A DNA stretch of 64,000 bases from Bacteroidia bacterium (GTDB lineage Bacteria; Bacteroidota; Bacteroidia; UKL13-3). The DNA lies in contig JAGPCK010000005.1 in the NCBI GenBank assembly GCA_018058135.1, positions 1 through 64,000 of the forward strand, in the 5' to 3' direction. Below are positions 14,482 through 47,126 of the stretch, piece after piece (positions within the stretch are counted from its first letter, which is position 1; each line of letters starts with the position of its first letter). The translations under genes and the position numbers were made by a program. The notes below the pieces were generated by a model. It was given only the letters and a program-made list of their open reading frames with translations, searched no databases and was not told the origin of the DNA.

Positions 14482-15015
14482 ATGGTGCGCAAATTAAAGA
14501 ATATTGAACTAAACCGCTTAAGTGTGGAAGAATTCAGAACAACTGATAAAATGAACGTGGTGCTGGTACTGGATAATATTCGTAGTGCGCTTAATGTGGG
14601 ATCTATATTCAGAACAGCCGATGCGTTTACTGTCAAATCACTGTATTTGTGTGGAATAACAGCTTCTCCACCCAACAACGAGTTACGAAAAACTGCCTTG
14701 GGAGCAGAAGAAAGTGTAAACTGGAAATATTATCCCTCTACCATAGAGGCTATTACTGCTTTAAAAGATGAAGGCTACAGCATTATGGCCGTGGAACAAA
14801 CCAGCTCAAGTCTTATAATAAATAATTTCACGCCAGAAGAAGGCGTAAAATATGCCCTTATTCTGGGAAACGAAGTACACGGAGTAAGTGAAGATTGCTT
14901 GCCCTTGTGCAATAAGTATCTTGAAATACCGCAAGCAGGAAGTAAACATTCACTAAATGTAGCAGTTAGTGCCGGTATAGTAAGCTGGCACTTTTTTCAG
15001 CACCTGTATAAATGA
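14482..15015 (+). CDS. TrmH/SpoU family RNA 2'-O-methyltransferase
   Basis: 177 aa from the ATG at 14482 (MVRKLKNIELNRLSVEEF). The upstream part of the open frame overlaps mutS and does not look like protein. SpoU motifs are present: NIRSALNVGSIFRTADAF (motif 1), LILGNEVHGVS (motif 2) and LEIPQAGSKHSLNVAVSAGI (motif 3), which together form the trefoil knot that binds SAM. The target is probably a tRNA or rRNA ribose; it cannot be told from sequence. A strong terminator follows immediately. Confidence 0.9.
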   Translation: MVRKLKNIELNRLSVEEFRTTDKMNVVLVLDNIRSALNVGSIFRTADAFTVKSLYLCGITASPPNNELRKTALGAEESVNWKYYPSTIEAITALKDEGYSIMAVEQTSSSLIINNFTPEEGVKYALILGNEVHGVSEDCLPLCNKYLEIPQAGSKHSLNVAVSAGIVSWHFFQHLYK

Positions 15016-41317: not shown

Positions 41318-42562
41318 ATGGATTTATTCGAAAAACTTGCAAGCAGACCCGGACCACTGGGCCAACATGCCGACAGAAGTCATGGCTATTACATGTTCCC
41401 TAAGTTGGAAGGACCAATTGGTGCACACATGAATTTTATGGGTAAACAAAAATTGGTGTGGAGTCTGAACAACTATTTAGGCTTAGCCAATCACCCGGAA
41501 GTGATGAAAGCAGATGCAGAAGGTGCTGCAAAATTTGGTATGGCCTACCCTATGGGTGCACGCATGATGAGCGGCAATAGCGACTATCACGAACAATTAG
41601 AAAAAGGTCTTGCTGAATTTATTGGTAAGGAAGATGTAATACTGATGAACTACGGTTATCAGGGCATGGTAAGTGCCATTGATTCTTTAGTTGACCGCCA
41701 CGATGTAATTGTATACGATGCCGAATCTCATGCTTGTATCATCGATGGAGTTCGTCTTCACCAAGGCAAACGTTTTGTTTACAACCACAACAACATGGAG
41801 AGCCTGGAGAAACAACTGGAGCGTGCTACACGCTGGGTTGCTGAAACCGGTGGTGCCATACTCGTAATTACCGAAGGTGTATTTGGTATGTCGGGAGTAC
41901 AGGGTAACCTTAAAGGTATTGTAGAACTGAAAAAGAAATTTGATTTCCGTTTGTTTGTAGATGACGCACACGGTATAGGCACCATGGGTAAGACAGGAGC
42001 CGGTACAGGTGAGGAACAAGGTGTAATGGATCAGATTGATATTTACTTCGGCACCTTTGCCAAATCATTTGCCGGTATCGGAGGTTTTATAGGCAGCAAC
42101 AAAGCCATTGTGAACCACCTGCGCTACAACACCCGCTCACAAATTTTTGCCAAATCGTTGCCCATGCCTATGGTAATAGGTGCATTAAAACGTTTGGAAC
42201 TTATTCGCACAAATCCTGAGTTGAAAAACAATTTATGGAAAATTGTGAATGCTTTGCAAAACGGCTTAAAGGAAGCCGGATTTAACATAGGCATTACCTC
42301 TTCTCCTGTAACTCCGGTAATATTAAACGGCACTATACCTGAGGCAACGGCACTTACGCACGACCTTAGAGAGCACTACAACATCTTCTGTTCTATTGTA
42401 GTGTATCCGGTTATTCCAAAAGGCATGATTATTCTTCGATTAATTCCAACAGCTGTTCACACCATTGAAGACGTTAACAGAACCATAGAGGCCTTTAAGG
42501 AAGTTAAGGAAAAGCTGGTTGCCGGAAAATACAATGTAGAGCAAATAGTGAAAGCTATTTAA
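41318..42562 (+). CDS. Alpha-oxoamine synthase family PLP enzyme (serine palmitoyltransferase / KBL-like)
   Basis: 414 aa. Fold-type I PLP enzyme. Landmarks: WSLNNYLGLANHPEV, MMSGNSDYHEQLE, DAESHACIIDG, VDDAHGIGTMGKTG and GTFAKSFAGIGGF, where K249 is the Schiff-base lysine. The family condenses an amino acid with an acyl thioester. In Bacteroidota such enzymes start sphingolipid or sulfonolipid synthesis (serine or cysteate as amino acid); other members are 2-amino-3-ketobutyrate CoA ligase and BioF. The neighbours do not decide between them. It is flanked by its own promoter and a terminator-like hairpin, so it is monocistronic. Confidence 0.82.
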   Translation: MDLFEKLASRPGPLGQHADRSHGYYMFPKLEGPIGAHMNFMGKQKLVWSLNNYLGLANHPEVMKADAEGAAKFGMAYPMGARMMSGNSDYHEQLEKGLAEFIGKEDVILMNYGYQGMVSAIDSLVDRHDVIVYDAESHACIIDGVRLHQGKRFVYNHNNMESLEKQLERATRWVAETGGAILVITEGVFGMSGVQGNLKGIVELKKKFDFRLFVDDAHGIGTMGKTGAGTGEEQGVMDQIDIYFGTFAKSFAGIGGFIGSNKAIVNHLRYNTRSQIFAKSLPMPMVIGALKRLELIRTNPELKNNLWKIVNALQNGLKEAGFNIGITSSPVTPVILNGTIPEATALTHDLREHYNIFCSIVVYPVIPKGMIILRLIPTAVHTIEDVNRTIEAFKEVKEKLVAGKYNVEQIVKAI

Positions 42563-42610: not shown

Positions 42611-42762
42611 CTTCATTATAATTATGTTGCTTCGTTTATTTTAAGCCTCAAACACAAATACTGTGTTCAGGGTGGGGAAAGGAATTTGCTGTATCTAAGC
42701 ATTGTATTACCCTTACTCCTAATTTTGGCTCAAACTCCCAAATTAGACCAAATGATATATTT

Positions 42763-42777: not shown

Positions 42778-42827
42778 TTTAAGATTAAATAATTCCATTA
42801 TGGGACTAATGTAGGGCATAACTAATT

Positions 42828-42889
42828 CATATTTAGATATTTACTAAATGGCACAATTATGCAAACAATAGTGCAAATATCTAAATATG
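42828..42889 (+). promoter_or_regulatory. Perfect 15-bp inverted repeat ending in the start codon
   Basis: CATATTTAGATATTT (42828-42842) and AAATATCTAAATATG (42875-42889) are exact reverse complements separated by 32 nt. The last three bases of the right arm are the ATG of the next gene. An inner GCAC/GTGC stem abuts the right arm. In RNA the hairpin would bury the start codon; in DNA it could be an operator. Confidence 0.7.
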
Positions 42890-45800
42890 AAAACAAAAAT
42901 AACTAAATCAAGATCATCAGTTCTCAAAATTGCACTTTACGTTAGTTTGCTATTGTCTATTTCCGCAAAAGGTGAAATAAGAACATGGACTAACGGAACA
43001 AGTAACGGTCTTTGGGCAAATGCTGGAAACTGGTCTCCTGCCGGAATACCTTCAGCAGCTGATACCGTGTTATTCAATGGCACTTCAACAGGTAACTGTA
43101 CCATTAATTCAAGTGCAAGCATCATGGGAATATTAATTGATTCTTCCTACAGTGGTACAATAGCACAAAATTCAAGCATCAGTATTGGTGCCTATGGATT
43201 TTATATGATGGGTACAGGGGTTTTTCAAGCATCTTCAAGTAGTATTACTGTGAATGGCCCATTTGAACTGAGGAGAGGAACATTAACTTGTTCGTCTGGC
43301 TTGATTACATTTAATAATACATGCCAGATTTCAGGAGGAGTATTCTCCGGAAATCATGGGAATATTGATTTCAATAGTTCATTTGAAATATCAGGAGGAA
43401 ACTTTATTGCTTCTGAAGGAACTACATTCTTCGCTATGGACATCAATATCTCAGGTGGTGAGTTTCATCCTAATAATGGAAGCATTGAAATCAATAGCTC
43501 AACCTCTCGCACCTTTGATTTAATGGGGAAATTGGAAGTGAATAACTTAATTATAAACTTCGGTAGTAGTGCACAATTAAACATTGCAAACGATGACACT
43601 ATATATGTAACTAAAAAACTTACGCTTCAAAACGGGATTTTCGCATCAGGAGTTGTAGCCGCAAATGATACCATTCTCATTAACTCAGGTTGGGATGATG
43701 GTAACGGAACTTTGCTTGTAAATGGCAGTTCAGATCAAGTAATGATTTTTAATGCTGACTGGCAAGGATGTAATCTAATAGTAGACAAACCAATTTCAAC
43801 TGCATTAAAACTAACAAAAGGAACAAGTAGCGTAATTTTTGGTAATACCAGTTCCAATCTTTCAATAGTGAGCGGGAAATTAATTCTCCCGCAAAATGAA
43901 GATGCCACAATAAATCACAGTAACGTAATTATTGAAATAAACGGGGAATTAGTTGCATCATCGGCTACAAGTGTATTAGGTGGCAACCTCCAAATTAATG
44001 AGGGAAAATTTACACATAACAATGGCATAATCGAGTTCAGAAGTTCAACCGCACGCACGCACAATTTCAGCAACGCTCTGTCAATAAACAAAGTCATTAT
44101 TAACTATAATGGTGTGCAGTTCAATATAGCAGAAAATGACACTTTGGTAATTAACAAGCAGCTATATCTCAACAATGGGGTGTTTAACTCTGGTGTAATA
44201 GCAGCAAAAGATAGTATAACAATTAACAACAGTTGGGACGATGGTAACGGAACACTAATAGTGAGCGGAGAGAACAATCAATACATGTTATTTAACGATG
44301 TTTGGAACGGATGCAATCTTATACTCAATAAAACAACTTCAAGCGGCACATTAAATATGGTAAAGGGTACCGCTTACATAACAATAGGGAATAGCAGTAC
44401 AAATCTTTTATTACTAAAAGGTCGGTTACTATTTCCTAATAACGATACGATTGACATCAACCATCAAAATATTATCGTTGAAGCAGATGCTGAGTTAACT
44501 GCCAGCTCATCACTTACCAGAATATCATCCAGTATTAAGATAAATGACGGGAAATTTTCACACAATAACGGAAGTATCGTTATTGATAACAGCTCAACAA
44601 GAACTTATCAAAGTACACAAATTGATACTTTATATAACCTTACTCTTAACTGTACAAGTAGTAGTATCATTTTCTCCATCACAAACGGAGATACTATAGT
44701 TGTACTTAACCAGCTTACTTTTCAAAATGGGAAACTTGATACAGGAGTTATTTTAGGGCTTGGTAACATAAGCTTCCTCAACACATCAGACAATGGAACA
44801 GCACCAGTAATAGCAAGCGGTTCGGGAAATACGATACTGAATATTTCAGCGAACATGACGACCCGAAACTTTATCATCAACAAACAAAACGCTACGGATA
44901 CAGTTTCAATAATAAATACGCTTGGAACAAGAGTTACTTCCGGAGGAAATACTACTCAGTTCAAACTGATAAGCGGAATAGTATGTTTTCCTGAAAATGA
45001 TACTGTTGACTTTAATTTCATAGATATTATTGTTGAAACAGCGGGAACATGGATTGCCACATCAACCTTATCATTAGTTTCTTCTAATGTAACCGTTAAC
45101 GGAGTATTTGCTCACAACAACGGAAATTATACCATTGATGCCGGCAGTTCCAGAAATTATTCCCTCTCGTCACCTTTGACTTTTTTCAATTTTACCCAAA
45201 ACCAATCGGGCAGTTTGAATATACAAAGTGATGACACTCTTATTGTAGAAGGCAACTTAACTCTTACTAATGGTTTATCGAATACGGGATTAATTAATGC
45301 AAAAGGAAATGTAAGCGTAGGGTCTTCGTTTGACAGAGGCACTGCAAAATTATTATTTACAGGTTCAGGTAATCAAACTTTTTCAATTAATAATTCCTCG
45401 AACTTTGATGGAGATATTATTCTAAACAAACCAAACCTCAGTGCAGTAATACTAAGCTCTCCCTTCAGTCTAGATGCTACCGATCAGGAACTAACTCTCA
45501 CAAAAGGCTATCTCGTTACCACTTCAACTAACCTGCTTACGATTGCTGACAACAGGTCAATTTCAGGAGGAAGTTCACAAGCCTTTATTTCAGGACCAGT
45601 AAGAAAAGTAGGTAATGACATCTTCACCTTCCCGGTTGGAAAAGACTCCGTATATGCACCAATAAGTATCTCTGCTCCTTCCAACTCGTCCCACCATTTT
45701 ACTGCTGAATACTTCAAATCAAATCCGGAGGTTGCAGCATACAACCGTACATCAAAAGAATCGTCCATAAATACCGTGAGTGCCAATGAGTTTTGGATAC

Positions 45801-46576
45801 TTGACAGAACCAACGGAACCTCAAATGTAACTGTAACATTAAGCTGGAATAGCGCAAGAAGCGGAAATATAACTGACACTTCTGATTTACTGGTAACTCG
45901 CTGGAACGGAACACAGTGGGTAAATCATGGCAAAGCCTCCTTTACCGGCAACACATCAGAAGGCACCATCACAACGTCTTCAGCAATAACCTCTTTTAGT
46001 CCTTTTACTTTAGGTTCATTCTCAGGAGTAAATGCATTACCTGTTGAGCTCATTAATTTTACGGCTCATCAACAACGCAACTCAGTTGAACTTAACTGGA
46101 GCACAGCTACAGAGATCAATAATGATTACTTTGAGGTTGAACGTGCTGCTAATATTACCGATTTCACTGCTATAGGTAAGGTAAATGGACACGGAAACAG
46201 TATTGAACTTTTACATTACACCTTTATTGACAACTCCCCACTTTCCGGAATCAGCTACTACAGGTTAAAACAGGTAGATTTTGACGGAACAGTACACTAT
46301 TCTTCAATTCAACCTATTAATAATATGCAAATCGAGATTAAAAACGTCTATCCAAACCCGGCAAGTGAAGTATTAAACATTGAGACTTCAGAAGAAATGA
46401 ATCACCTAAGTAGTATAACGGTTTACAACCTGCTTGGTCAAAAAGTTACCTGCAACTTCACCTATTCAGGCAATACTTTACATTTAGATGTATCATCTAT
46501 GAACCGTGGAAGTTACACTGTTTTACTTCAGAATAATAGTAGCATACAAACTATCCGGTTTAATGTAGCCCGATAG
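42887..46576 (+). CDS. T9SS-secreted repeat protein with type A sorting domain
   Basis: 1229 aa. A signal segment (ISKS-type basic start, then VLKIALYVSLLLSISAKG) is followed by a beta-strand-rich region opening with TWTNGTSNGLWANAGNWSPA, a pattern common in secreted beta-helix-like proteins. Units beginning HPNNGSIEI, HNNGIIEF, HNNGSIVI and HNNGNYTI recur at residues ~194, 377, 559 and 742, a period of ~183 aa. Each contains INxxNDTLxVxxxLxLxNG. After residue ~1050, LPVELINFTAHQQRNSVELN is the module often found before the sorting signal. The last ~80 aa (VYPNPASEVLNIET onward) are the type A T9SS signal. It is probably an adhesin or surface-layer component; the function is unknown. Confidence 0.88.
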   Translation: MKTKITKSRSSVLKIALYVSLLLSISAKGEIRTWTNGTSNGLWANAGNWSPAGIPSAADTVLFNGTSTGNCTINSSASIMGILIDSSYSGTIAQNSSISIGAYGFYMMGTGVFQASSSSITVNGPFELRRGTLTCSSGLITFNNTCQISGGVFSGNHGNIDFNSSFEISGGNFIASEGTTFFAMDINISGGEFHPNNGSIEINSSTSRTFDLMGKLEVNNLIINFGSSAQLNIANDDTIYVTKKLTLQNGIFASGVVAANDTILINSGWDDGNGTLLVNGSSDQVMIFNADWQGCNLIVDKPISTALKLTKGTSSVIFGNTSSNLSIVSGKLILPQNEDATINHSNVIIEINGELVASSATSVLGGNLQINEGKFTHNNGIIEFRSSTARTHNFSNALSINKVIINYNGVQFNIAENDTLVINKQLYLNNGVFNSGVIAAKDSITINNSWDDGNGTLIVSGENNQYMLFNDVWNGCNLILNKTTSSGTLNMVKGTAYITIGNSSTNLLLLKGRLLFPNNDTIDINHQNIIVEADAELTASSSLTRISSSIKINDGKFSHNNGSIVIDNSSTRTYQSTQIDTLYNLTLNCTSSSIIFSITNGDTIVVLNQLTFQNGKLDTGVILGLGNISFLNTSDNGTAPVIASGSGNTILNISANMTTRNFIINKQNATDTVSIINTLGTRVTSGGNTTQFKLISGIVCFPENDTVDFNFIDIIVETAGTWIATSTLSLVSSNVTVNGVFAHNNGNYTIDAGSSRNYSLSSPLTFFNFTQNQSGSLNIQSDDTLIVEGNLTLTNGLSNTGLINAKGNVSVGSSFDRGTAKLLFTGSGNQTFSINNSSNFDGDIILNKPNLSAVILSSPFSLDATDQELTLTKGYLVTTSTNLLTIADNRSISGGSSQAFISGPVRKVGNDIFTFPVGKDSVYAPISISAPSNSSHHFTAEYFKSNPEVAAYNRTSKESSINTVSANEFWILDRTNGTSNVTVTLSWNSARSGNITDTSDLLVTRWNGTQWVNHGKASFTGNTSEGTITTSSAITSFSPFTLGSFSGVNALPVELINFTAHQQRNSVELNWSTATEINNDYFEVERAANITDFTAIGKVNGHGNSIELLHYTFIDNSPLSGISYYRLKQVDFDGTVHYSSIQPINNMQIEIKNVYPNPASEVLNIETSEEMNHLSSITVYNLLGQKVTCNFTYSGNTLHLDVSSMNRGSYTVLLQNNSSIQTIRFNVAR

Positions 46577-46590
46577 TACATACCCTAAAA

Positions 46591-46625
46591 AAAGAGATGG
46601 TGTAAATTACACCATCTCTTTTTTT
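46591..46625 (+). terminator. Terminator after the 1229-aa repeat protein
   Basis: AAAGAGATGGTGT / ACACCATCTCTTT, a 13-bp perfect stem with a 5-nt loop, followed by a T run. Confidence 0.9.
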
Positions 46626-46638
46626 ATTGGTGATGACT

Positions 46639-46646
46639 TACATTTG
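46639..46646 (+). promoter_or_regulatory. Bacteroidota -7 element TACATTTG
   Basis: A TAnnTTTG match 3 nt before the ATG at 46650. Only leaderless initiation, or a downstream start codon, would be compatible with it. Confidence 0.45.
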
Positions 46647-46649
46647 TGT

Positions 46650-47126
46650 ATGGAAACAAATCAAATGGAAACGTATTTTGGTGAACACCTGGCGGAAGAT
46701 TTAAATAAAATTAAAAATGTGTCTCCTTTGTGGGGCAAAATGGACGCACAACAAATGCTCGAACATTTATGTCTCCCCTTTTTGATTGCTACCGGAAAAA
46801 TGAGTGTATCACTTACCTCGCCCGAAGATAAAACACCCGTACTTAAACGTATTTTAATGAGCGATAAACCGTTGCCCAAATTATTTCACAACCCTATTTT
46901 GCCTGAAATACCAATGCCTGCAGCCGGTGCCAACCTCGAAGAAAGTAAAAAAGCATTAAAGGAAAGTGTAGCCTTCTTTTTGGATTACTTTAAAAAGAAC
47001 CCTAACGCCACCGCCCTGCACAACATTTACGGAGAACTGAACTACCAGGAATGGTTGGTGATGAACATTAAGCACGTGCGACATCACTTTGCTCAGTTTG
47101 GGGTGGAAATCGATGCTACGCTGTAG
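46650..47126 (+). CDS. DinB-superfamily protein (DUF1569-like)
   Basis: 158 aa from the ATG at 46650. It has the DinB-like four-helix pattern: WGKMDAQQMLEHLCLPF near the N-terminus and KHVRHHFAQFGV at the C-terminus, giving the three-His arrangement typical of metal-binding members. No signal peptide is present. Family members include thiol-dependent S-transferases, some of which use bacillithiol. A link with bshC in this window is possible but unproven. It converges on and overlaps the radical SAM gene by 11 bp. Confidence 0.75.
   Translation: METNQMETYFGEHLAEDLNKIKNVSPLWGKMDAQQMLEHLCLPFLIATGKMSVSLTSPEDKTPVLKRILMSDKPLPKLFHNPILPEIPMPAAGANLEESKKALKESVAFFLDYFKKNPNATALHNIYGELNYQEWLVMNIKHVRHHFAQFGVEIDATL

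Follow-up and report, generated by a model that had tools for sequence, protein, structure and literature searches.

RNA thermometers such as ROSE, fourU and cyanobacterial hsp17 pair the translation initiation region within a hairpin of the 5'-UTR, and the known members of this group carry bulges or mismatches in the stem. In hsp17, for example, the stem has a 1x3 bulge (PMC4477652). A stem-loop also covers the initiation region in the leader of the phage T4 lysozyme gene, gene e, where the hairpin cuts translation of the long transcript 100-fold, while translation is efficient on shorter transcripts that lack the 5' arm (PMC3014915). Bacteroidetes themselves carry invertible promoters, or invertons, which are bounded by short perfect inverted repeats and often adjoin surface-related genes (PMC11892184). 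Perfect hairpins can furthermore be made in one step by template switching during replication (PMC8794818), a process that is also reported to homogenise the arms (PMC8604942). In the Bacteroidetes model F. johnsoniae, translation initiates without Shine-Dalgarno pairing and is tuned by mRNA structure near the AUG (PMC6847099).

The repeat considered here lies in a window of 64 kb, the whole stretch of DNA that was analysed. It consists of two perfectly complementary arms of 17 nt, not 15 bp as the first-pass annotation had it, at the place and with the gap of 32 nt that were given there. The left arm, opposite in sense to the start region, occupies 42826-42842 on the plus strand (TTCATATTTAGATATTT), and the right arm, 42875-42891 on the same strand (AAATATCTAAATATGAA), holds the ATG (42887-42889), as had been noted, and extends over the next two bases, which belong to codon 2. 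The edges of the arms are sharp, the six next flanking positions outside them being mismatched, as is the first inner position. Within the spacer (42843-42874), GCAC at 42851-42854 and GTGC at 42871-42874 form a weak inner stem, which had been described as stacking directly on the outer one. The inner stem exists and its GTGC abuts the right arm, but eight unpaired nucleotides (ACTAAATG) lie between GCAC and the left arm, so that the inner stem is a bulged extension and not a direct stack on both strands; at 37 C an alternative inner pairing is predicted for this region. The repeat does not have the features of an intrinsic terminator (a GC-rich stem followed by a U-run), AACAAAAATAAC coming after it, and a terminator scan made no call there.

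The gene whose start codon is enclosed (42887-46576, plus strand) encodes a 1229-aa protein with a signal peptide, and its C-terminal Por_Secre_tail sorting domain and a G8-like match identify it as a cargo of the type IX secretion system (T9SS). The start assignment at 42887 is credible, because the open reading frame begins with a signal-peptide-like sequence (MKTKITKSRSSVLKIALYVSLLLSISAKG) and there is no in-frame ATG soon after. A hairpin with 20-bp arms and a T-rich 3' arm, located just past the stop codon (46586-46626, plus strand), is the probable terminator of the gene. The gene lies between a KBL-like aminotransferase gene upstream (41318-42562) and a gene for a DinB/DUF1569-like protein downstream (46644-47126). 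In a congeneric genome these two neighbours adjoin each other, with little intergenic DNA between them, and the syntenic place lacks the T9SS gene as well as its leader and the repeat, which makes the gene an accessory one. The T9SS cargo load of the genome is very high, with about 150 Por_Secre_tail matches in an assembly of 3.0 Mb that is 84% complete.

That the arms pair by chance is negligible, which bears out the view of the first-pass annotation that a perfect match of such length is very unlikely to be random. In eight second-order Markov copies of the window the longest arms reached 13 nt, and arms of 13 nt or more with a gap of up to 40 were absent from 194 kb of random sequence resembling the leader. 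By analytic calculation, the leader would be expected to hold 1.2e-5 repeats with arms of 17 nt or more and a gap not exceeding 100, and a complete genome of 3 Mb would be expected to hold 0.02-0.1. A survey covering 430 kb of this genome showed the other long perfect inverted repeats to be nearly all short-loop hairpins (gap of 8 or less), many of the terminator type, with the exception of one repeat-family hit with a gap of 26. Among the 316 open reading frames of at least 150 aa in these 430 kb, a single one, the T9SS cargo gene studied here, has its start overlapped by a perfect inverted repeat longer than 10 nt. The repeat is thus a real, non-random feature, the function of which is uncertain.

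It is also a singleton in the sampled genomes. Elsewhere in its own genome the arm sequence has no exact copy and, with up to two mismatches, no more matches than a backwards control. Comparison of the repeat DNA with 64 genomes of the family gave three weak matches of 24-31 nt and nothing beyond them, and these three reflect the AT-rich start context only, with no repeat at those places; the exact arm-spacer-arm pattern was found in the window itself and nowhere else among 395 genomes of the class and viral contigs. A long inverted repeat at the start is absent from about 80 other T9SS leaders of the same genome, taken from among its 150 Por_Secre_tail matches, and from about 28 homologue loci. 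The protein has only partial relatives in the related and GTDB genomes searched, about 30-45% identical and matching mostly in the C-terminal or repeat domains, and no orthologue with its leader was found in the sampled genomes. None of the Rfam covariance models reached its gathering score on the repeat.

The predicted RNA fold is exceptionally stable for the region (z = -4.9, with none of 200 shuffled sequences as stable), and ViennaRNA assigns the hairpin on its own -25.9 kcal/mol at 25 C, which weakens to -19.9 kcal/mol at 37 C. In these predictions the AUG is more than 99% paired, and its probability of being unpaired is less than 0.001 at 25 C, does not exceed 0.002 at temperatures up to 42 C and reaches about 0.01 at 60 C. 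Opening positions -13 to +15 at 25 C would cost 16.9 kcal/mol, as compared with a mean of 7.6 kcal/mol (s.d. 3.3) for 74 other T9SS genes, which ranks the gene second of 75. Comparable opening energies are predicted for three further T9SS genes that have no long inverted repeat over the start, and strong predicted structure alone is therefore not diagnostic. Since initiation in Bacteroidetes is tuned by local structure and not by Shine-Dalgarno pairing (PMC6847099), burial of the AUG should matter.

The promoter context of the gene is unusual as well. The Bacteroidetes -7 element, TAnnTTTG, occurs in exact form at 32 sites within 60 nt of the starts of 74 T9SS genes, against 3 in a reversed control, an enrichment that indicates that such promoters are used by this genome. 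No exact copy lies within 60 nt of the start of the 1229-aa gene. The only one in the leader, TAATTTTG (42720-42727, plus strand), is 159 nt upstream of the ATG and is a weak candidate promoter which, when its flanks are counted, scores below all training sites; since it lies upstream of the whole repeat, a transcript beginning there would carry both arms. A scan for promoters of this housekeeping type found no well-scoring TAnnTTTG-like element on the plus strand between 42775 and 42880 that could start transcription in the loop. On the minus strand, an exact copy (TATTTTTG, 42894-42901) is directed antisense through the hairpin and may be an antisense promoter, but its occurrence is near chance level.

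On the basis of these data we infer, tentatively and with a probability of about 0.4, that the repeat acts in cis as an RNA hairpin that sequesters the start codon and silences the transcripts that carry both arms. Transcripts beginning upstream of 42826, whether by read-through from the upstream gene or from the distal TAATTTTG promoter, would fold into the 17-bp stem, which would bury the AUG and leave the long transcript poorly translated. Relief could come from a transcript with its 5' terminus inside the left arm or beyond it, through a start site or an RNase cut in the 32-nt loop, or alternatively from a factor that opens the stem. The proposal of the first-pass annotation that an RNA may hide the start codon is supported by the geometry and the folding: arms far beyond chance span the AUG, the fold and its opening energy stand out from those of shuffled sequences and of most other T9SS genes, and the repeat is the sole one of its kind over a start in the surveyed portion of the genome, in a phylum whose initiation is structure-tuned. 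Several observations argue against a sequestering hairpin. Such a device is missing from the remaining T9SS genes of the genome and from homologues in other genomes, the sampled genomes hold no orthologue in which it might be conserved, and the three T9SS genes mentioned above attain like opening energies without such a repeat. No -7-like element on the plus strand would let transcription start within the loop, and 17 uninterrupted base pairs make a stem of unusual strength for a switch. Leaders in relatives are moreover short, with a mean of 33 nt in F. johnsoniae (PMC6847099), and the left arm would fall outside a leader of that length.

The closest described parallel is the leader of T4 gene e, with which the locus shares a start codon within a stable stem, as found here in silico. 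In gene e, however, two late promoters have been mapped in the 5' arm and a 100-fold repression has been measured, whereas no promoter is recognisable in the loop of the present predicted hairpin, and its host belongs to a phylum that makes no use of Shine-Dalgarno pairing. With this one defining feature found, we do not claim that the locus belongs to the gene e type. A more specific version would see in it a Shine-Dalgarno-independent start-codon lock of Bacteroidetes that turns an accessory secreted or surface protein on and off, set strictly by the site of transcription start (or by inversion of the spacer through template switching). Because initiation in Bacteroidetes depends on an unstructured AUG neighbourhood, a perfect hairpin on the AUG would have this effect; in this strict form we regard the lock as improbable. 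If functional, the hairpin would represent a leader that sequesters the start codon in a phylum where Shine-Dalgarno signals play no part, and would permit a direct test of the control that AUG occlusion by itself exerts on initiation there. Its general importance is limited, as it is a singleton without orthologues, and any function that it has would follow a principle already described.

The strongest competitor of a sequestering hairpin, doubtful in our estimate and yet to be taken seriously, is that the repeat arose as a by-product of mutation. During replication, one template-switch (snap-back) event would have placed a reverse-complement copy of the start region upstream of it, recently and without selection; the perfect stem would have arisen at once, and an accessory gene would tolerate it. 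The perfection of the arms, their abrupt edges on both sides and the occurrence of the repeat as a one-off in its own genome and in the 395 genomes of the class all agree with such an origin and resemble the template-switch hairpins already described, which are likewise present in one copy and have no homologues (PMC8794818). The absence of the gene from the congener, which marks an insertion or loss locus, fits too. Unlike in the published cases, no ancestral allele is at hand to prove the event, the pre-duplication form being absent from the available genomes. Such an accident would also have had to fall exactly on a start codon, although initiation regions make up a small share of the genome, and a strong block should harm an intact gene for 1229 aa unless it is rarely expressed.

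Unlikely, to a greater degree than the mutational origin, is a DNA operator, also named in the first-pass annotation, in which a regulator binding as two dimers or as a multimer to sites 49 bp apart from centre to centre, and overlapping the start, would control transcription. The lack of the usual TAnnTTTG within 60 nt makes an alternative or regulated promoter plausible, and the leader is rich in CTAA/TTAG (11 occurrences, 4.6 expected), an excess that is not notable once all 4-mers are allowed for. For a simple dimer site, however, 32 nt would be a long spacer, and the exact arm recurs nowhere else in the genome, giving no sign of a regulon.

Another suggestion of the first-pass annotation, that the repeat bounds an invertible segment, is very improbable. 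Here the arms would recombine and flip the spacer, so that a promoter would either face the gene or point in the other direction. The locus resembles the Bacteroidetes invertons in its short perfect repeats upstream of a surface-protein gene, and a flipped spacer would aim two weak -7-like elements with five of six matching positions at the gene (GATATTTG and TAATTGTG); these are not clearly above chance (P = 0.05-0.2), and the spacer contains no consensus promoter in either orientation. To our knowledge, invertons have spacers far longer than 32 bp. The whole assembly encodes three tyrosine recombinases, none of them on this contig, and no dedicated invertase is nearby; pattern search found no second copy of the repeat, which is unshared with other loci, and a flip would leave the start codon and the arms unchanged.

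An RNA thermometer, likewise put forward in the first-pass annotation, is scarcely to be believed, for although an AU-rich stem lies over the start codon and might melt on warming to free the AUG, its 17 pairs are uninterrupted, unlike the stems of known thermometers with their bulges or mismatches, its AUG stays closed in silico through the physiological temperature range and up to 60 C, and the gene encodes a cell-surface or secreted protein and not a heat-shock protein.

Other repeats were encountered in the course of these searches. Next to the aminotransferase orthologue in another genus of the family (genome G078; L051, 2892-2970) is a perfect inverted repeat of 30 nt (TCCGTTGGCTAAAGCCTAACGGCAATGGAT) with a gap of 19. 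In the genome under study, two nearby repeats of the type GTGCCA(C)ATTATGGCAC form inverted repeats on contig C123 (L093, 17366-17424). They lie upstream of a gene on the minus strand, at a distance of about 40-90 nt, and this gene encodes an AAA/restriction-like protein. A palindromic repeat, TTTAGGG-(A/T)4-CCCTAAA, has 16 copies in this genome with at most one mismatch (control, 1), clustered on several contigs and often paired 22 nt apart. They are found on C17 (L096, 1220-1234, 9012-9048, 12501 and 14786-14841), C55 (7479-7515), C87 (38993-39029), C102 (165992-166048 and 171570-171603) and C48 (26774-26807), the last within a region retrieved as a T9SS gene leader (L117). This palindrome looks like an operator or a small repeat family.
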